Of a DNA stretch of 64,000 bases, positions 15,534-25,107 are shown in pieces. Where the stretch lies: NCBI GenBank assembly GCA_947625605.1, contig CANQOY010000003.1, positions 1-64,000 of the forward strand, in the 5' to 3' direction. The notes beneath the pieces are model-generated. The model ran no database searches, was not told the origin of the DNA, and saw only the letters and a program-made list of their open reading frames with translations. The position numbers and the translations under genes were made by a program. Each line of letters starts with the position of its first letter. The stretch's first letter is position 1. The DNA is from an uncultured Clostridia bacterium. Lineage in GTDB: Bacteria > Bacillota > Clostridia > Christensenellales > Borkfalkiaceae.

Positions 15534-15537
<4 letters not shown>
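14209..15537 (-). CDS. rimO: Ribosomal protein S12 methylthiotransferase RimO
   Basis: SLGCDKNRVDGE, radical SAM CFNHCTYCLIP, TRAM domain. Confidence 0.95.
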
Positions 15538-18923
<3,386 letters not shown>

Positions 18924-19083: not shown

Positions 19084-19833
19084 TTATACCATGCTCTCCA
19101 AAATGAGCTTGTCCGCCACCAGCGCGATAAATTCGCTGTTCGTCGGCTTTTCCGTGCCGATATACACCCTTGCGCCGAAGATCGCGTTCACGGCGTCTAC
19201 CCTGCCGCGGTTCCATGCGACCTCGATCGCATGGCGAATGGCGCGCTCCACCTTGCTCGCCGACGTCTGGAAGCGTTCGCCGATGATGGGATACAGCCCC
19301 TTGGTGACGTTGTTGATGATGTGCGGATCATTCACGGCCATCTTGATGCCCTCGCGCAGGTAGTTGTATCCTTTGATGTGGGGCGGGATCCCGATGGAGA
19401 TGAAGATGTTGGAGATGCGTTCGTCGAGAGAGCCCGCGCGGCGGCGCTCGAACTTCTCCGTCTTGGGCGAGAGGTCAGACAAGATCTCGGCCACGCGCTC
19501 CTCCACAAGTTCCGCGGAGACGGGCTTCATGAGGTAGTACCTCGCCCCGAGTTCGATCGCACGGTTGATGATCTTGTCGTCCGTGAAGTTCCCCATGACG
19601 ATGAAGTCCGCCTTCTTGCCGCTCTTCCTCGCCTCCTCCATGACGGTGAAGCCGTCGCAGGTCTTCAAAAGCAGGCTCATGACGACGATTGCGGGAGAGG
19701 CGCTTTCAAGCAGTTTGAGCCCCTCTGCCCCGTCTGCCGATACGCCGCAGACGTCGTAACCCTCCTTGGTGAAGAGTGCGGCGAGTTCTCCTGCGAACGC
19801 TTCGTTGCTTTCCAGAATCAAAATGCGTTTCAT
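19084..19833 (-). CDS. spo0A: Sporulation master regulator Spo0A-like, degenerate receiver
   Basis: Strong Spo0A C-terminal domain (NIFISIGIPPHIKGYNYLREGI...KGLYPIIGERFQTSASKVERAIRHAIEVAWNRG). Confidence 0.93.
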   Translation of the reverse strand: MKRILILESNEAFAGELAALFTKEGYDVCGVSADGAEGLKLLESASPAIVVMSLLLKTCDGFTVMEEARKSGKKADFIVMGNFTDDKIINRAIELGARYYLMKPVSAELVEERVAEILSDLSPKTEKFERRRAGSLDERISNIFISIGIPPHIKGYNYLREGIKMAVNDPHIINNVTKGLYPIIGERFQTSASKVERAIRHAIEVAWNRGRVDAVNAIFGARVYIGTEKPTNSEFIALVADKLILESMV

Positions 19834-19924
19834 AGATTTTCCTCCCTTTTTCTGAATTATAAAACACAATTTTGAATTTGTAAAGTCATTTTTGTACAAA
19901 ATACAAAAAATTTTTTACAAAATT

Positions 19925-19967
19925 TGACGAATTTTGAATTATTCTGTTGAATTTTCATAATTCGACA
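19925..19967. promoter_or_regulatory. Two 0A-box-like sequences upstream of spo0A
   Basis: TGACGAA (19925-19931) and TTCGACA = TGTCGAA on the minus strand (19961-19967). Confidence 0.5.
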
Positions 19968-20078
19968 AAAATCGACCCGAAGTCGCAGACATGCCCCCAT
20001 CAAAAGAGGTGTAAAAAAATTCCCGCTGAAAGGCGAGCGGGAAGAAGAGAAGCGTTGGGTGAGGCGCTTTGCGGGCCG

Positions 20079-21656
<1,578 letters not shown>

Positions 21657-21771
21657 ATTGCCCTCTCTTTTCTGTTTCCACGGGGGATTATACCATATTT
21701 CGGGCGGCGCGGCAAGCAAATCGCGGGCAGAAAAAATTTCTTTTGAATGTTCACATAATGAAATAATTTGG

Positions 21772-21800
21772 TTGACAGCACGGGATTTTTTTCCTATAAT
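21772..21800 (+). promoter_or_regulatory. Sigma-A-type promoter of the YhhN-ADH-ALDH fusion gene
   Basis: TTGACA - 17 nt - TATAAT, 28 nt upstream of the ATG. Confidence 0.85.
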
Positions 21801-21828
21801 ACAAAAAGACTGCCTCGGAGGTAGGTTC

Positions 21829-24800
21829 ATGAAACGCATTCAAGACAAGTTATTTCTCACGGTGAACGCCGCATTTTTTGCGCTCACCGCCGCGGGGTGC
21901 GTCCTCTACATTCTATATGGTACGCTTCCCGTCAAGGCCGCCGCGAGCGCGGCGTTCCTGCTCCTCGCGCTCTTCAATGTGATCTTGGCGCTCGTCCGCG
22001 GGAAGGGCGGCTACCCGCTCTGCAAATATTTGCTGCTCGCAGGGCTCGCCCTCGCCTTTGCGGGGGATATCGCGCTCGAATACGAGTTTATCGCGGGGAT
22101 CGCGCTCTTTGCGGCGGGGCATGTCCTGCTCATCGGCGCCTTCCATGCGCTCAAACCGCTCGGCTGGCGGGATATTTTGCCCACCCTGTTGCTCGCGGGA
22201 GGGTCCGTGTGCCTGCTCGTGCTGCTCCCCGCCTATGACTTCGGCGATCTCCTCGCGCCCGTTCTCGTGTACGCCGTCGTGATCTCGGCCATGCTCGGGA
22301 AGGCGGCGGGCGTCCTGCTCGACCGCAAGCTCGACCTTGCCATGCGGCTCGGCGTGTTCGGCGGCGCGCTGCTCTTCTTCGCCTCCGACCTCTTTCTGAC
22401 CTTTGCCAACTTCACCGCATTTGCGTTCGACTTCTCCGTGCCCTGCCTCGTGACGTATTACCTCGCCACCTATCTGCTGGCAGTGACGGTGTATCTCGCT
22501 TCCGCGACGGGGGAACGGCGCGAAAGCGTTCGGATGAATGTGTTCGCACGGCTCTATTGCCGCGCGTTTCAGGGCATCTTCCGCCTCGCCATTCCCTTCA
22601 TGCCCTACCGCAAGCCCAAACTGCTCGAAAATTGCGGGGAGGCCGCTTCCCTCATCCGGGAAAAGGGCAAGCGCCGCCCGCTCATCGTGACGGACGCGGG
22701 CGTCCGCGCGCACGGCGTACTTGCGCCCGTGACGGAGGCGCTCGATCGGGCGGGTATCGCCTATGAGATCTTCGACGAGACGCCCGCAAACCCCACCGTG
22801 TCCGCGATCGAGGCGGCATTTTCGCTCTACCGCGAACGGGGATGCGACTGCCTCATGGCCGTGGGCGGCGGCTCGCCCATGGACTGCGCAAAGGGCGTCT
22901 GCGCGCGCATCATCTGCCCCAAAAAGCCGCTCGTCCGCATGCAGGGCATCCTCAAAGTCATCGGCTTTGCGCCCCTCTTCATCGCCGTGCCCACCACGGC
23001 GGGAACGGGGAGCGAGGCGACCATCGCCGCCGTCGTCACCGATGAAAAGACGCACCATAAATTTACCGTGCTCTCCTTCTGCCTCGCACCCAAATACGCG
23101 CTTTTGGACCCCGTTCTGACCAAGACGCTCCCGCCTGCTCCCACCGCGGAGACGGGGCTCGACGCGCTGACCCACGCCGTGGAGGCTTACATCGGCCGCT
23201 CGACGACCCGCATGACGCGCCGCCTTGCCGTGAGCGCCGTGAAGCGCATCGACAAAAATCTGCTCACCGCCTACCGCGACGGAGAGAACCTTGCCGCGCG
23301 CAGGGAGATGCAGCTCGCCGCCTATGAGGCGGGGCTTGCGTTCACCGTCTCCTATGTCGGGTATGTGCATGCCGTGGCGCACTCTCTGGGCGGCGCATAC
23401 AACCAACCGCACGGCAGGACAAATGCCACGCTCCTGCCCATCGTGCTCCGCATGTACGGCAAATCGGCGGAGAGGCGGCTTGCCAAGCTCGCCCGTTTGA
23501 GCGGCGTCTGTGGGGAACCGCTTCCGCGCCATGAAGCCGCCGAGTCGTTCCTCGCATGGATCGAGGATCTCAACGAACAGACGGGGATCCCGAAGTCGAT
23601 CGAAATCGCGGAAGAGGATATCCCCGCGCTGGCGAAAAACGCCGCGGCAGAGGCGAATCCGCTCTATCCCGTGCCCCGCCTCATGGACCGCACCGCGCTC
23701 GAAGATATCTACCGCGCGGCGCGCACGCGGCATGTCCTCTCCTCCGAGGAGGCGCTCGCGGCGCAGAAGAAGCATTTTGCGTCGGGCGCGACATTAGATC
23801 TCAAAACGCGCAGACGCTATCTGGAAAAACTGTACACCGCGCTTGTGGAACGCGAAGGGCAACTCAACGACGCGCTCAGAGCCGATCTCGGGAAGAGCGC
23901 GTATGAAAGTTATATGTGCGAAGTGGGCATGGTACGGGCGGAAATCGCCCATCTCCTCAAACACCTCCGCGGCTACGCCAAGGAAAAGCGGGTAAAAACG
24001 CCGCTCGCGCAGTTCGCCTCCCGTAGCTACAAAAAGCCTTCGCCCTACGGATGCGTGCTCGTGATGAGCCCGTGGAACTACCCCGTTCTGCTCACGTTGG
24101 AACCCCTCGCCGACGCCATCGCCGCGGGCAACTGCGTCATCGTCAAGCCCTCCGCGTACTCCCCCGCGACGAGCGACGCGCTCAAAGCGCTGCTTTGCGA
24201 CGTGTTCCCGCCCGAGCTCGTCTATCCCGTGCTCGGCGGCAGAGCGGAGAATGCGGCGCTCCTCGACCTGCCATTCGACAAGATCTTCTTCACGGGAAGC
24301 GTTGCCGTCGGGAAAGAGGTGATGCGGCGCGCCGCGGAAAGGCTCATCCCCGTCACCCTCGAACTCGGCGGCAAGAGCCCCTGCATCGTAGACGAAACCG
24401 CGGATATCCCGCTCGCCGCAAAGCGCATCGTGTTCGGGAAATTCTTGAACTGCGGGCAGACATGCGTCGCGCCCGACTATATCCTCGTGCACCGCTCCGC
24501 CGAACAGAGGCTCCTCGCCGAACTCAAACGGCAGATCCAAAGGCAGTTCGGCGAACGGCCGCTCGAAAACGCGGACTACGGGAAGATCATCAGCGAAAAG
24601 CACTTCCGCCGCATTGCGGCGCTCATCGACCCCGCCAAGGTGTACTGCGGCGGCGAATCGGACGAAAAAACGCTCCGCATTGCGCCCACCGTTCTGCAAA
24701 ATGTGACGCGGGAGGACGGCGTGATGCAGGAGGAGATCTTCGGCCCCGTCCTGCCCGTGCTCGTGTATGACGACGAGGGGGAGATCATCGCGGACATCAA

Positions 24801-25107
24801 CGCGGGCAACGCCCCGCTCGCGCTCTACCTCTTCACCTCGAAAAAGGAGACCGAGCGCAAGGTTATGTCGCGCGTCGCATTCGGCGGCGGGTGCGTGAAC
24901 GACGTCGTCATCCACATCGCCTCTTCCGAGCTGCCCTTCGGCGGCGTGGGCGCGAGCGGCATGGGCGCCTATCACGGCAGGGCGGGCTTTGAATGCTTCT
25001 CGCACACGAAAGGCATTGTGGACAAGAAAACGTGGATCGATATGCCCATGCGCTATCAGCCGTACGGGAAATTCTTCGAAAGGCTCGTGCGCTTCTTTAT
25101 GAAATAA
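21829..25107 (+). CDS. Tripartite fusion: YhhN/TMEM86 lysoplasmalogenase-like membrane domain + iron-containing alcohol dehydrogenase + ALDH3-type aldehyde dehydrogenase
   Basis: Single uninterrupted ORF. YhhN-like FAGDIALEYE...GHVLLIGAFHAL...GALLFFASDLFLTF; Fe-ADH GGGSPMDCAKG, PTTAGTGSEAT, AHSLGGAYNQPHG; ALDH SPWNYPVLLTLEPLADAIAAGNCVIVKPS, LELGGKSP, NCGQTCVAPDY, PFGGVGASGMGAYHG. Confidence 0.9.
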   Translation: MKRIQDKLFLTVNAAFFALTAAGCVLYILYGTLPVKAAASAAFLLLALFNVILALVRGKGGYPLCKYLLLAGLALAFAGDIALEYEFIAGIALFAAGHVLLIGAFHALKPLGWRDILPTLLLAGGSVCLLVLLPAYDFGDLLAPVLVYAVVISAMLGKAAGVLLDRKLDLAMRLGVFGGALLFFASDLFLTFANFTAFAFDFSVPCLVTYYLATYLLAVTVYLASATGERRESVRMNVFARLYCRAFQGIFRLAIPFMPYRKPKLLENCGEAASLIREKGKRRPLIVTDAGVRAHGVLAPVTEALDRAGIAYEIFDETPANPTVSAIEAAFSLYRERGCDCLMAVGGGSPMDCAKGVCARIICPKKPLVRMQGILKVIGFAPLFIAVPTTAGTGSEATIAAVVTDEKTHHKFTVLSFCLAPKYALLDPVLTKTLPPAPTAETGLDALTHAVEAYIGRSTTRMTRRLAVSAVKRIDKNLLTAYRDGENLAARREMQLAAYEAGLAFTVSYVGYVHAVAHSLGGAYNQPHGRTNATLLPIVLRMYGKSAERRLAKLARLSGVCGEPLPRHEAAESFLAWIEDLNEQTGIPKSIEIAEEDIPALAKNAAAEANPLYPVPRLMDRTALEDIYRAARTRHVLSSEEALAAQKKHFASGATLDLKTRRRYLEKLYTALVEREGQLNDALRADLGKSAYESYMCEVGMVRAEIAHLLKHLRGYAKEKRVKTPLAQFASRSYKKPSPYGCVLVMSPWNYPVLLTLEPLADAIAAGNCVIVKPSAYSPATSDALKALLCDVFPPELVYPVLGGRAENAALLDLPFDKIFFTGSVAVGKEVMRRAAERLIPVTLELGGKSPCIVDETADIPLAAKRIVFGKFLNCGQTCVAPDYILVHRSAEQRLLAELKRQIQRQFGERPLENADYGKIISEKHFRRIAALIDPAKVYCGGESDEKTLRIAPTVLQNVTREDGVMQEEIFGPVLPVLVYDDEGEIIADINAGNAPLALYLFTSKKETERKVMSRVAFGGGCVNDVVIHIASSELPFGGVGASGMGAYHGRAGFECFSHTKGIVDKKTWIDMPMRYQPYGKFFERLVRFFMK

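Follow-up and report, generated by a model that had tools for sequence, protein, structure and literature searches.

Phosphorylation of Spo0A is taken to be the decision point of endospore formation. What becomes of that decision in a bacterium whose only Spo0A has no aspartate at the phospho-acceptor position? The question arises from one gene in the 64,000-nucleotide stretch of DNA analysed here (the window), part of a 1.43-Mb metagenome-assembled genome (97% complete) of Candidatus Gallimonas, a genus of gut Clostridia that we take to belong, in GTDB, to the Borkfalkiaceae. According to a 2024 paper on Clostridioides difficile, all bacterial spore-formers regulate sporulation through Spo0A activation (PMC11115286). 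The gene lies on the minus strand of the window:

19084..19833, minus strand: spo0A, 249 amino acids; its ATG start codon, at 19833, is closely preceded by a GGGAGG ribosome-binding site

A longer frame could open at a TTG (19899), but the ribosome-binding site of the ATG is a good one. The product matches the Spo0A equivalog TIGR02875 (spore_0_A) over its full length (residues 3–247; 224.4 bits against a curated cut-off of 200), and its DNA-binding domain, which a sequence-only reading of this DNA had called Spo0A-like, earns that description with a Pfam Spo0A_C score of 132.5 bits over residues 140–243. Residues 4–114 match Pfam Response_reg (56.3 bits, cut-off 30.2). In the AlphaFold2 model the receiver folds normally, pLDDT lying mostly in the 90s over residues 1–80 and in the 80s to about residue 120, and a Foldseek search of the PDB returned matches to receiver domains and to the Spo0A DNA-binding domain.

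The active site within this predicted fold is not that of a canonical receiver. We aligned the protein with Spo0A of Bacillus subtilis, using a reference sequence that we presume to be accurate and that agrees with the PDB matches. The canonical set (acceptor Asp, acidic pair, Thr/Ser and Lys) is incomplete: three of the five residues are lost, leaving only the first acid and the Lys.

19807..19812, minus strand: codons of Glu8-Ser9, in the column of the B. subtilis metal-binding pair Asp10-Asp11
19675..19677, minus strand: Ser53 (codon AGC), in the column of the phospho-acceptor Asp, B. subtilis D56
19591..19593, minus strand: Gly81 (codon GGG), in the column of the switch Thr86; it opens a GNF(S/A/T)DD motif
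19525..19527, minus strand: Lys103 (codon AAG), the receiver Lys, kept as in B. subtilis K108

The Ser at the acceptor site, the Gly in place of the conserved Thr and the retained Lys had all been proposed by the sequence-only reading, and each holds in the alignment; an alternative Asp in the acceptor column, which could have overturned it, is absent there. Its account of the acidic pair as ES stands only in part: the residues are indeed Glu8-Ser9, but Glu is still acidic and the pair is half kept. Given the Response_reg match, the predicted fold and the three missing residues, we class the domain, on this sequence and model evidence, as a pseudo-receiver (aspartate-less receiver), and the protein, in the absence of biochemistry, as an orthologue of Spo0A by descent rather than a phospho-regulated Spo0A. 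Elsewhere in the same genome, a response regulator of LytTR type that has no kinase next to it (L149, G000:C19:10573-10908) carries Glu in the acceptor column (FTEVQL) and is a candidate second pseudo-receiver.

The altered site extends through the genus. Of 81 distinct Spo0A proteins from Gallimonas, 78 have Ser in the acceptor column, two have Asn and one has Asp, with AGC or AGT as the Ser codon throughout, a recurrence on which we reject sequencing error, chance or misassembly as its source. The first acidic position (10) is Glu in 81/81 and the second is Ser in 75/81; position 86 is Gly in every protein and position 87 Asn in 78 of the 81, while Tyr at position 105, the aromatic switch residue, and Lys at position 108 are kept in all. 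The sole Asp bearer (L122) still has neither a second acid nor a switch Thr. In the β4–α4 loop, GNF(S/A/T)DD constitutes a new motif that is near-invariant across the genus, which argues for a maintained function of the receiver and not for its decay. The recognition helix of the Spo0A_C domain, VERAIRHAIEVAW, is likewise unchanged in 81/81. Mean pN/pS comes to 0.36 in the receiver against 0.13 in the DNA-binding domain; these are rough estimates, with synonymous sites near saturation, and by them the Gallimonas receiver is under purifying selection.

Beyond the genus, none of 106 Spo0As sampled from the family that includes Gallimonas (f1) has the intact D-D-D-T-K quintet. In one genus, g26, some members lack only a single catalytic residue of the five and may still be phosphorylatable. 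The acceptor varies by genus—Asn or Asp in g26, Glu, Gly or Asp in g27, Gly or Ser in g28, Ser in g29 and g31, Asn in g30—and the pocket residues of these other genera differ from those of Gallimonas. Outside f1 most Spo0As are canonical, with a Glu acceptor in single genera of families f10, f19 and f27. A maximum-likelihood tree, built after removal of the acceptor column, implies at least nine changes between Asp and non-Asp across the order, a rough count given that many forks are weakly supported. Neither this family-wide extent of the altered site nor the retention of sporulation genes described below had been part of the sequence-only reading.

Family f27 includes genomes of only 0.9–1.2 Mb that carry Spo0A (G246, G281, G335, G344, G143, G229, G063, G104 and G220). 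In G246 and G281 it is the only receiver and there is no HisKA kinase; SpoIVA is present in all three f27 genomes tested for it (these two and G335). The HATPase proteins of 8/10 f27 genomes are only of the sizes of GyrB/ParE, MutL, HtpG and SpoIIAB, names assigned from size. These small genomes are candidates for kinase-free spore-formers.

Does a Spo0A of this kind still have a sporulation programme to govern? The window genome carries a spoIIAA-spoIIAB-sigF operon, a spoIIGA-sigE-sigG operon, sigK, a sigH-like factor and a full-length SpoIIE; several of these sporulation factors score below strict equivalog cut-offs, and we named them by best match and gene order. Almost every Gallimonas genome has a SpoIIE-like protein, nearly every one of those searched has two SigF/SigG-class factors, and SpoIVA is present in 42/42 genomes tested (41 above the cut-off); in 14 control genomes SpoIVA was found in B. 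subtilis only. We infer from gene content that the sporulation programme is present at the gene level, without expression or spore data and with late genes outside the search.

The upstream regions of spo0A and of the spoIIA operon carry putative targets for the conserved DNA-binding domain. In the window they are accompanied by a promoter and a palindrome:

19961..19968, minus strand: 0A box TTGTCGAA, some 130 bp ahead of the spo0A start codon, a candidate autoregulatory site
19890-19901, minus strand: palindrome TTTTGTACAAAA, close to the -35 element of spo0A on its upstream side
19856..19901, minus strand: sigma-A-like spo0A promoter including the palindrome, with TTTACA at 19884-19879 and TATAAT at 19861-19856

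In 45 of 78 Gallimonas species the exact 7-mer TGTCGAA is found in the 220 bp preceding spo0A, whereas dinucleotide shuffles gave a mean of 3.5 species and at most 9. The boxes peak at -140 to -121. Ahead of spoIIAA, the 7-mer occurs in 6/18 species (0.6 expected), four times near -95, and its core GTCGAA in 12/18 (2.7 expected). The sequences share descent, and the counts are not independent trials; the fixed positions of the boxes nonetheless argue for function despite this kinship. At spoIIG and spoIIE of the window genome no exact 0A box was found, and degenerate candidates were seen by eye only. An RNase P RNA guessed by eye upstream of spoIIE received no support from Rfam. The promoter (TTTACA-N16-18-TATAAT, with a relaxed -10) recurs at spo0A in 73/78 species, and TTTTGTACAAAA is exact in 42/78 and occurs once within the 64-kb window; it is a candidate operator for another, unidentified regulator.

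The input side of the pathway is sparse by comparison with studied spore-formers. An orphan kinase was present in 47 of 48 spore-formers in a published survey, the exception being Erysipelatoclostridium ramosum (PMC6136694). The window genome encodes eight receivers and six histidine kinases, and a response regulator stands beside every kinase:

C2:44.8k/45.1k, C2:53.9k/55.6k and C2:77k/78.4k: kinase/regulator pairs of the window genome
C9:20k/21.4k, C22:17k/18.8k and C24:5.7k/6.0k: kinase/regulator pairs of the window genome

None of the six kinases is thus an orphan, and none of the eight receivers is a Spo0F-like single-domain protein. HisKA-type orphan kinases number 0 in 16 genomes of family f1, as against at least one in 5/9 Asp-bearing genomes of other families (4/9 have none), a contrast that is suggestive only, the genomes being related and fragmented contigs being able to mimic orphans. 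Nor was a second Spo0A found in the window genome: only one protein has a Spo0A_C domain, and the objection that the gene is a mere paralog of an intact copy fails. The suggestion of the sequence-only reading that control here is independent of the classical phosphorelay is supported on these several counts—the acceptor lost genus-wide, a new conserved motif around its site, and no second Spo0A, Spo0F-like receiver or orphan kinase in the window genome. What substitutes for phosphorylation has not been shown, and Spo0B lay outside the search.

Additional Spo0A_C proteins do occur elsewhere. One Gallimonas genome (G019) has a second, divergent Spo0A_C-domain protein (G019:C2:121187-121480, a 277-aa frame, 48.9 bits), and several genomes of the order (G038, G041, G043, G044, G045, G049, G050, G054 and others) carry extra short stand-alone Spo0A_C proteins of ~110–155 aa without a receiver.

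We lean towards an explanation in which a single functional Spo0A with a pseudo-receiver drives the sporulation genes without Asp phosphorylation, its activity set by its abundance and perhaps adjusted by a ligand or partner. The receiver would fold and remain under selection but, lacking the canonical Asp, could not be phosphorylated there, and Spo0A would bind 0A boxes either in its ground state or when joined to a partner, DNA binding being inferred. Entry into sporulation would be set mainly by the amount of Spo0A, through inferred autoregulation and the operator-like palindrome beside the spo0A promoter; the remodelled pocket and β4–α4 loop may in addition, again by inference, let a ligand or partner protein modulate it. 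The genus-wide altered pocket, the 0A boxes, the genes for sigma F, E, G and K and the lack of an orphan kinase together support a phosphorylation-independent Spo0A, and control through expression level is one model already put forward for pseudo-receivers (PMC12632262). Against this explanation stand the Asp of L122, the g26 proteins with four residues, and the classification of Borkfalkiaceae MAGs as non-sporulating by SpoMAG (PMC12536801). Spore formation in Gallimonas, known from uncultured MAGs without expression or spore data, is unproven, and any activating signal for its Spo0A is inferred.

The main rival to control by abundance is gating by a ligand or partner: the pseudo-receiver would act as a sensor, with a small molecule, redox state or partner protein controlling DNA binding, and Spo0A would be a one-component regulator. 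The pocket Glu, Asn and Lys and the GNF(S/A/T)DD motif, invariant or nearly so after loss of the acceptor, speak for such a sensor, and the ligand-gated pseudo-receivers JadR1 and RedZ provide precedent (PMC12632262); yet we find no ligand, no tell-tale neighbouring gene and no ligand-bound structure, and the different pockets in other genera of the family make a shared ligand less than obvious. We regard this sensor reading as possible but doubtful, while recognizing that abundance and ligand control cannot be separated from sequence. A different source of constraint on the acceptor site would be a Hanks-type Ser/Thr kinase that phosphorylates Ser53, or another Ser or Thr, in place of Asp phosphorylation. 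The near-fixation of Ser (78/81) invites this idea, which we nevertheless hold to be very unlikely: two Gallimonas species have Asn, and because close relatives carry Asn, Gly or Glu at the site, a phosphorylatable residue there is not required.

The remaining alternatives deny either that the receiver is maintained or that it has changed its chemistry. Under neutral decay, sporulation would be lost or disappearing and the receiver eroding, as the repeated acceptor changes on the tree of the order and the non-sporulating prediction for the family would allow; but the replacement residues are invariant and not random, receiver pN/pS is as low as 0.36, and the sigma cascade, SpoIIE, SpoIVA and 0A boxes are kept across Gallimonas. 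On the strength of that invariance we judge simple decay unlikely. It is also conceivable that a kinase encoded elsewhere still phosphorylates the receiver, inefficiently or on another Asp, given that Lys103 and Glu8 persist and that the window genome has six histidine kinases. With the acceptor, second acid and switch Thr all gone, a regulator beside each kinase and no other Asp in the acceptor column, we find such residual phosphorylation scarcely credible.

We tentatively suggest, as something that could well prove wrong, that a whole family of gut Clostridia may start endospore formation without Spo0A phosphorylation, by a one-component Spo0A whose abundance or ligand decides, and that other families of the order may have made the same change independently, among them genomes of ~1 Mb with SpoIVA, Spo0A as sole receiver and no HisKA kinase.

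The Gallimonas protein shares with the Bacillus and Clostridium Spo0As of TIGR02875 its domain order, DNA-binding helix, 0A-box targets, single copy and position upstream of the sigma F and sigma E programme; unlike them, it has no acceptor Asp, second acid, switch Thr or orphan kinase. In its receiver fold, missing catalytic residues and retained output domain it resembles the aspartate-less receivers termed ALR, PsR or ARR, for most of which the activation mechanism is unknown (PMC4395418, PMC12632262), but none of the examples considered here is a Spo0A or governs endospore formation, and the Gallimonas change is fixed genus-wide and spread over a family. Closer in biological role are the orphan atypical regulators of differentiation into spores BldM and WhiI of Streptomyces (PMC4125116) and FruA of Myxococcus (PMC12632262), which differ in output-domain family, in spore type and in belonging to lineages other than the endospore-forming Firmicutes. 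CmrT of Clostridioides difficile is a pseudo-receiver for which control via its own expression level has been proposed (PMC12548384, PMC12632262); it differs in having an OmpR-family output, in being encoded with a second regulator, CmrR, and in having no master role in sporulation. Pseudo-receivers and the Spo0A family are both known; a Spo0A naturally without its acceptor appears to be new, as we found no report of one in the literature, subscription papers being outside our search.

Gallimonas thus probably starts sporulation by a switch other than that of the studied spore-formers. If so, it would offer a developmental pathway in which the input layer has been replaced and the output wiring preserved, and its lineage would provide many natural replicates for the study of pseudo-receiver control, which has been called a mystery (PMC12632262). 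A MAG that carries spo0A need not have a classical sporulation switch.

The window spo0A is flanked by two genes on its own strand:

15534-18923, minus strand: FtsK/SpoIIIE translocase, one neighbour of spo0A
20079-21839, minus strand: ABC-F type ATPase, the other neighbour

Within the FtsK frame, a 33-bp tandem repeat of ~8 copies (17360-17626) encodes an 11-residue repeat (DRFTRTDVPSD-like) in the translocase linker. Further along, a plus-strand frame (21583-25107), of which an internal ATG is probably the true start, fuses a YhhN (lysoplasmalogenase-like membrane) domain to iron alcohol dehydrogenase and aldehyde dehydrogenase domains, a triple fusion that could channel fatty aldehyde from lysoplasmalogen.
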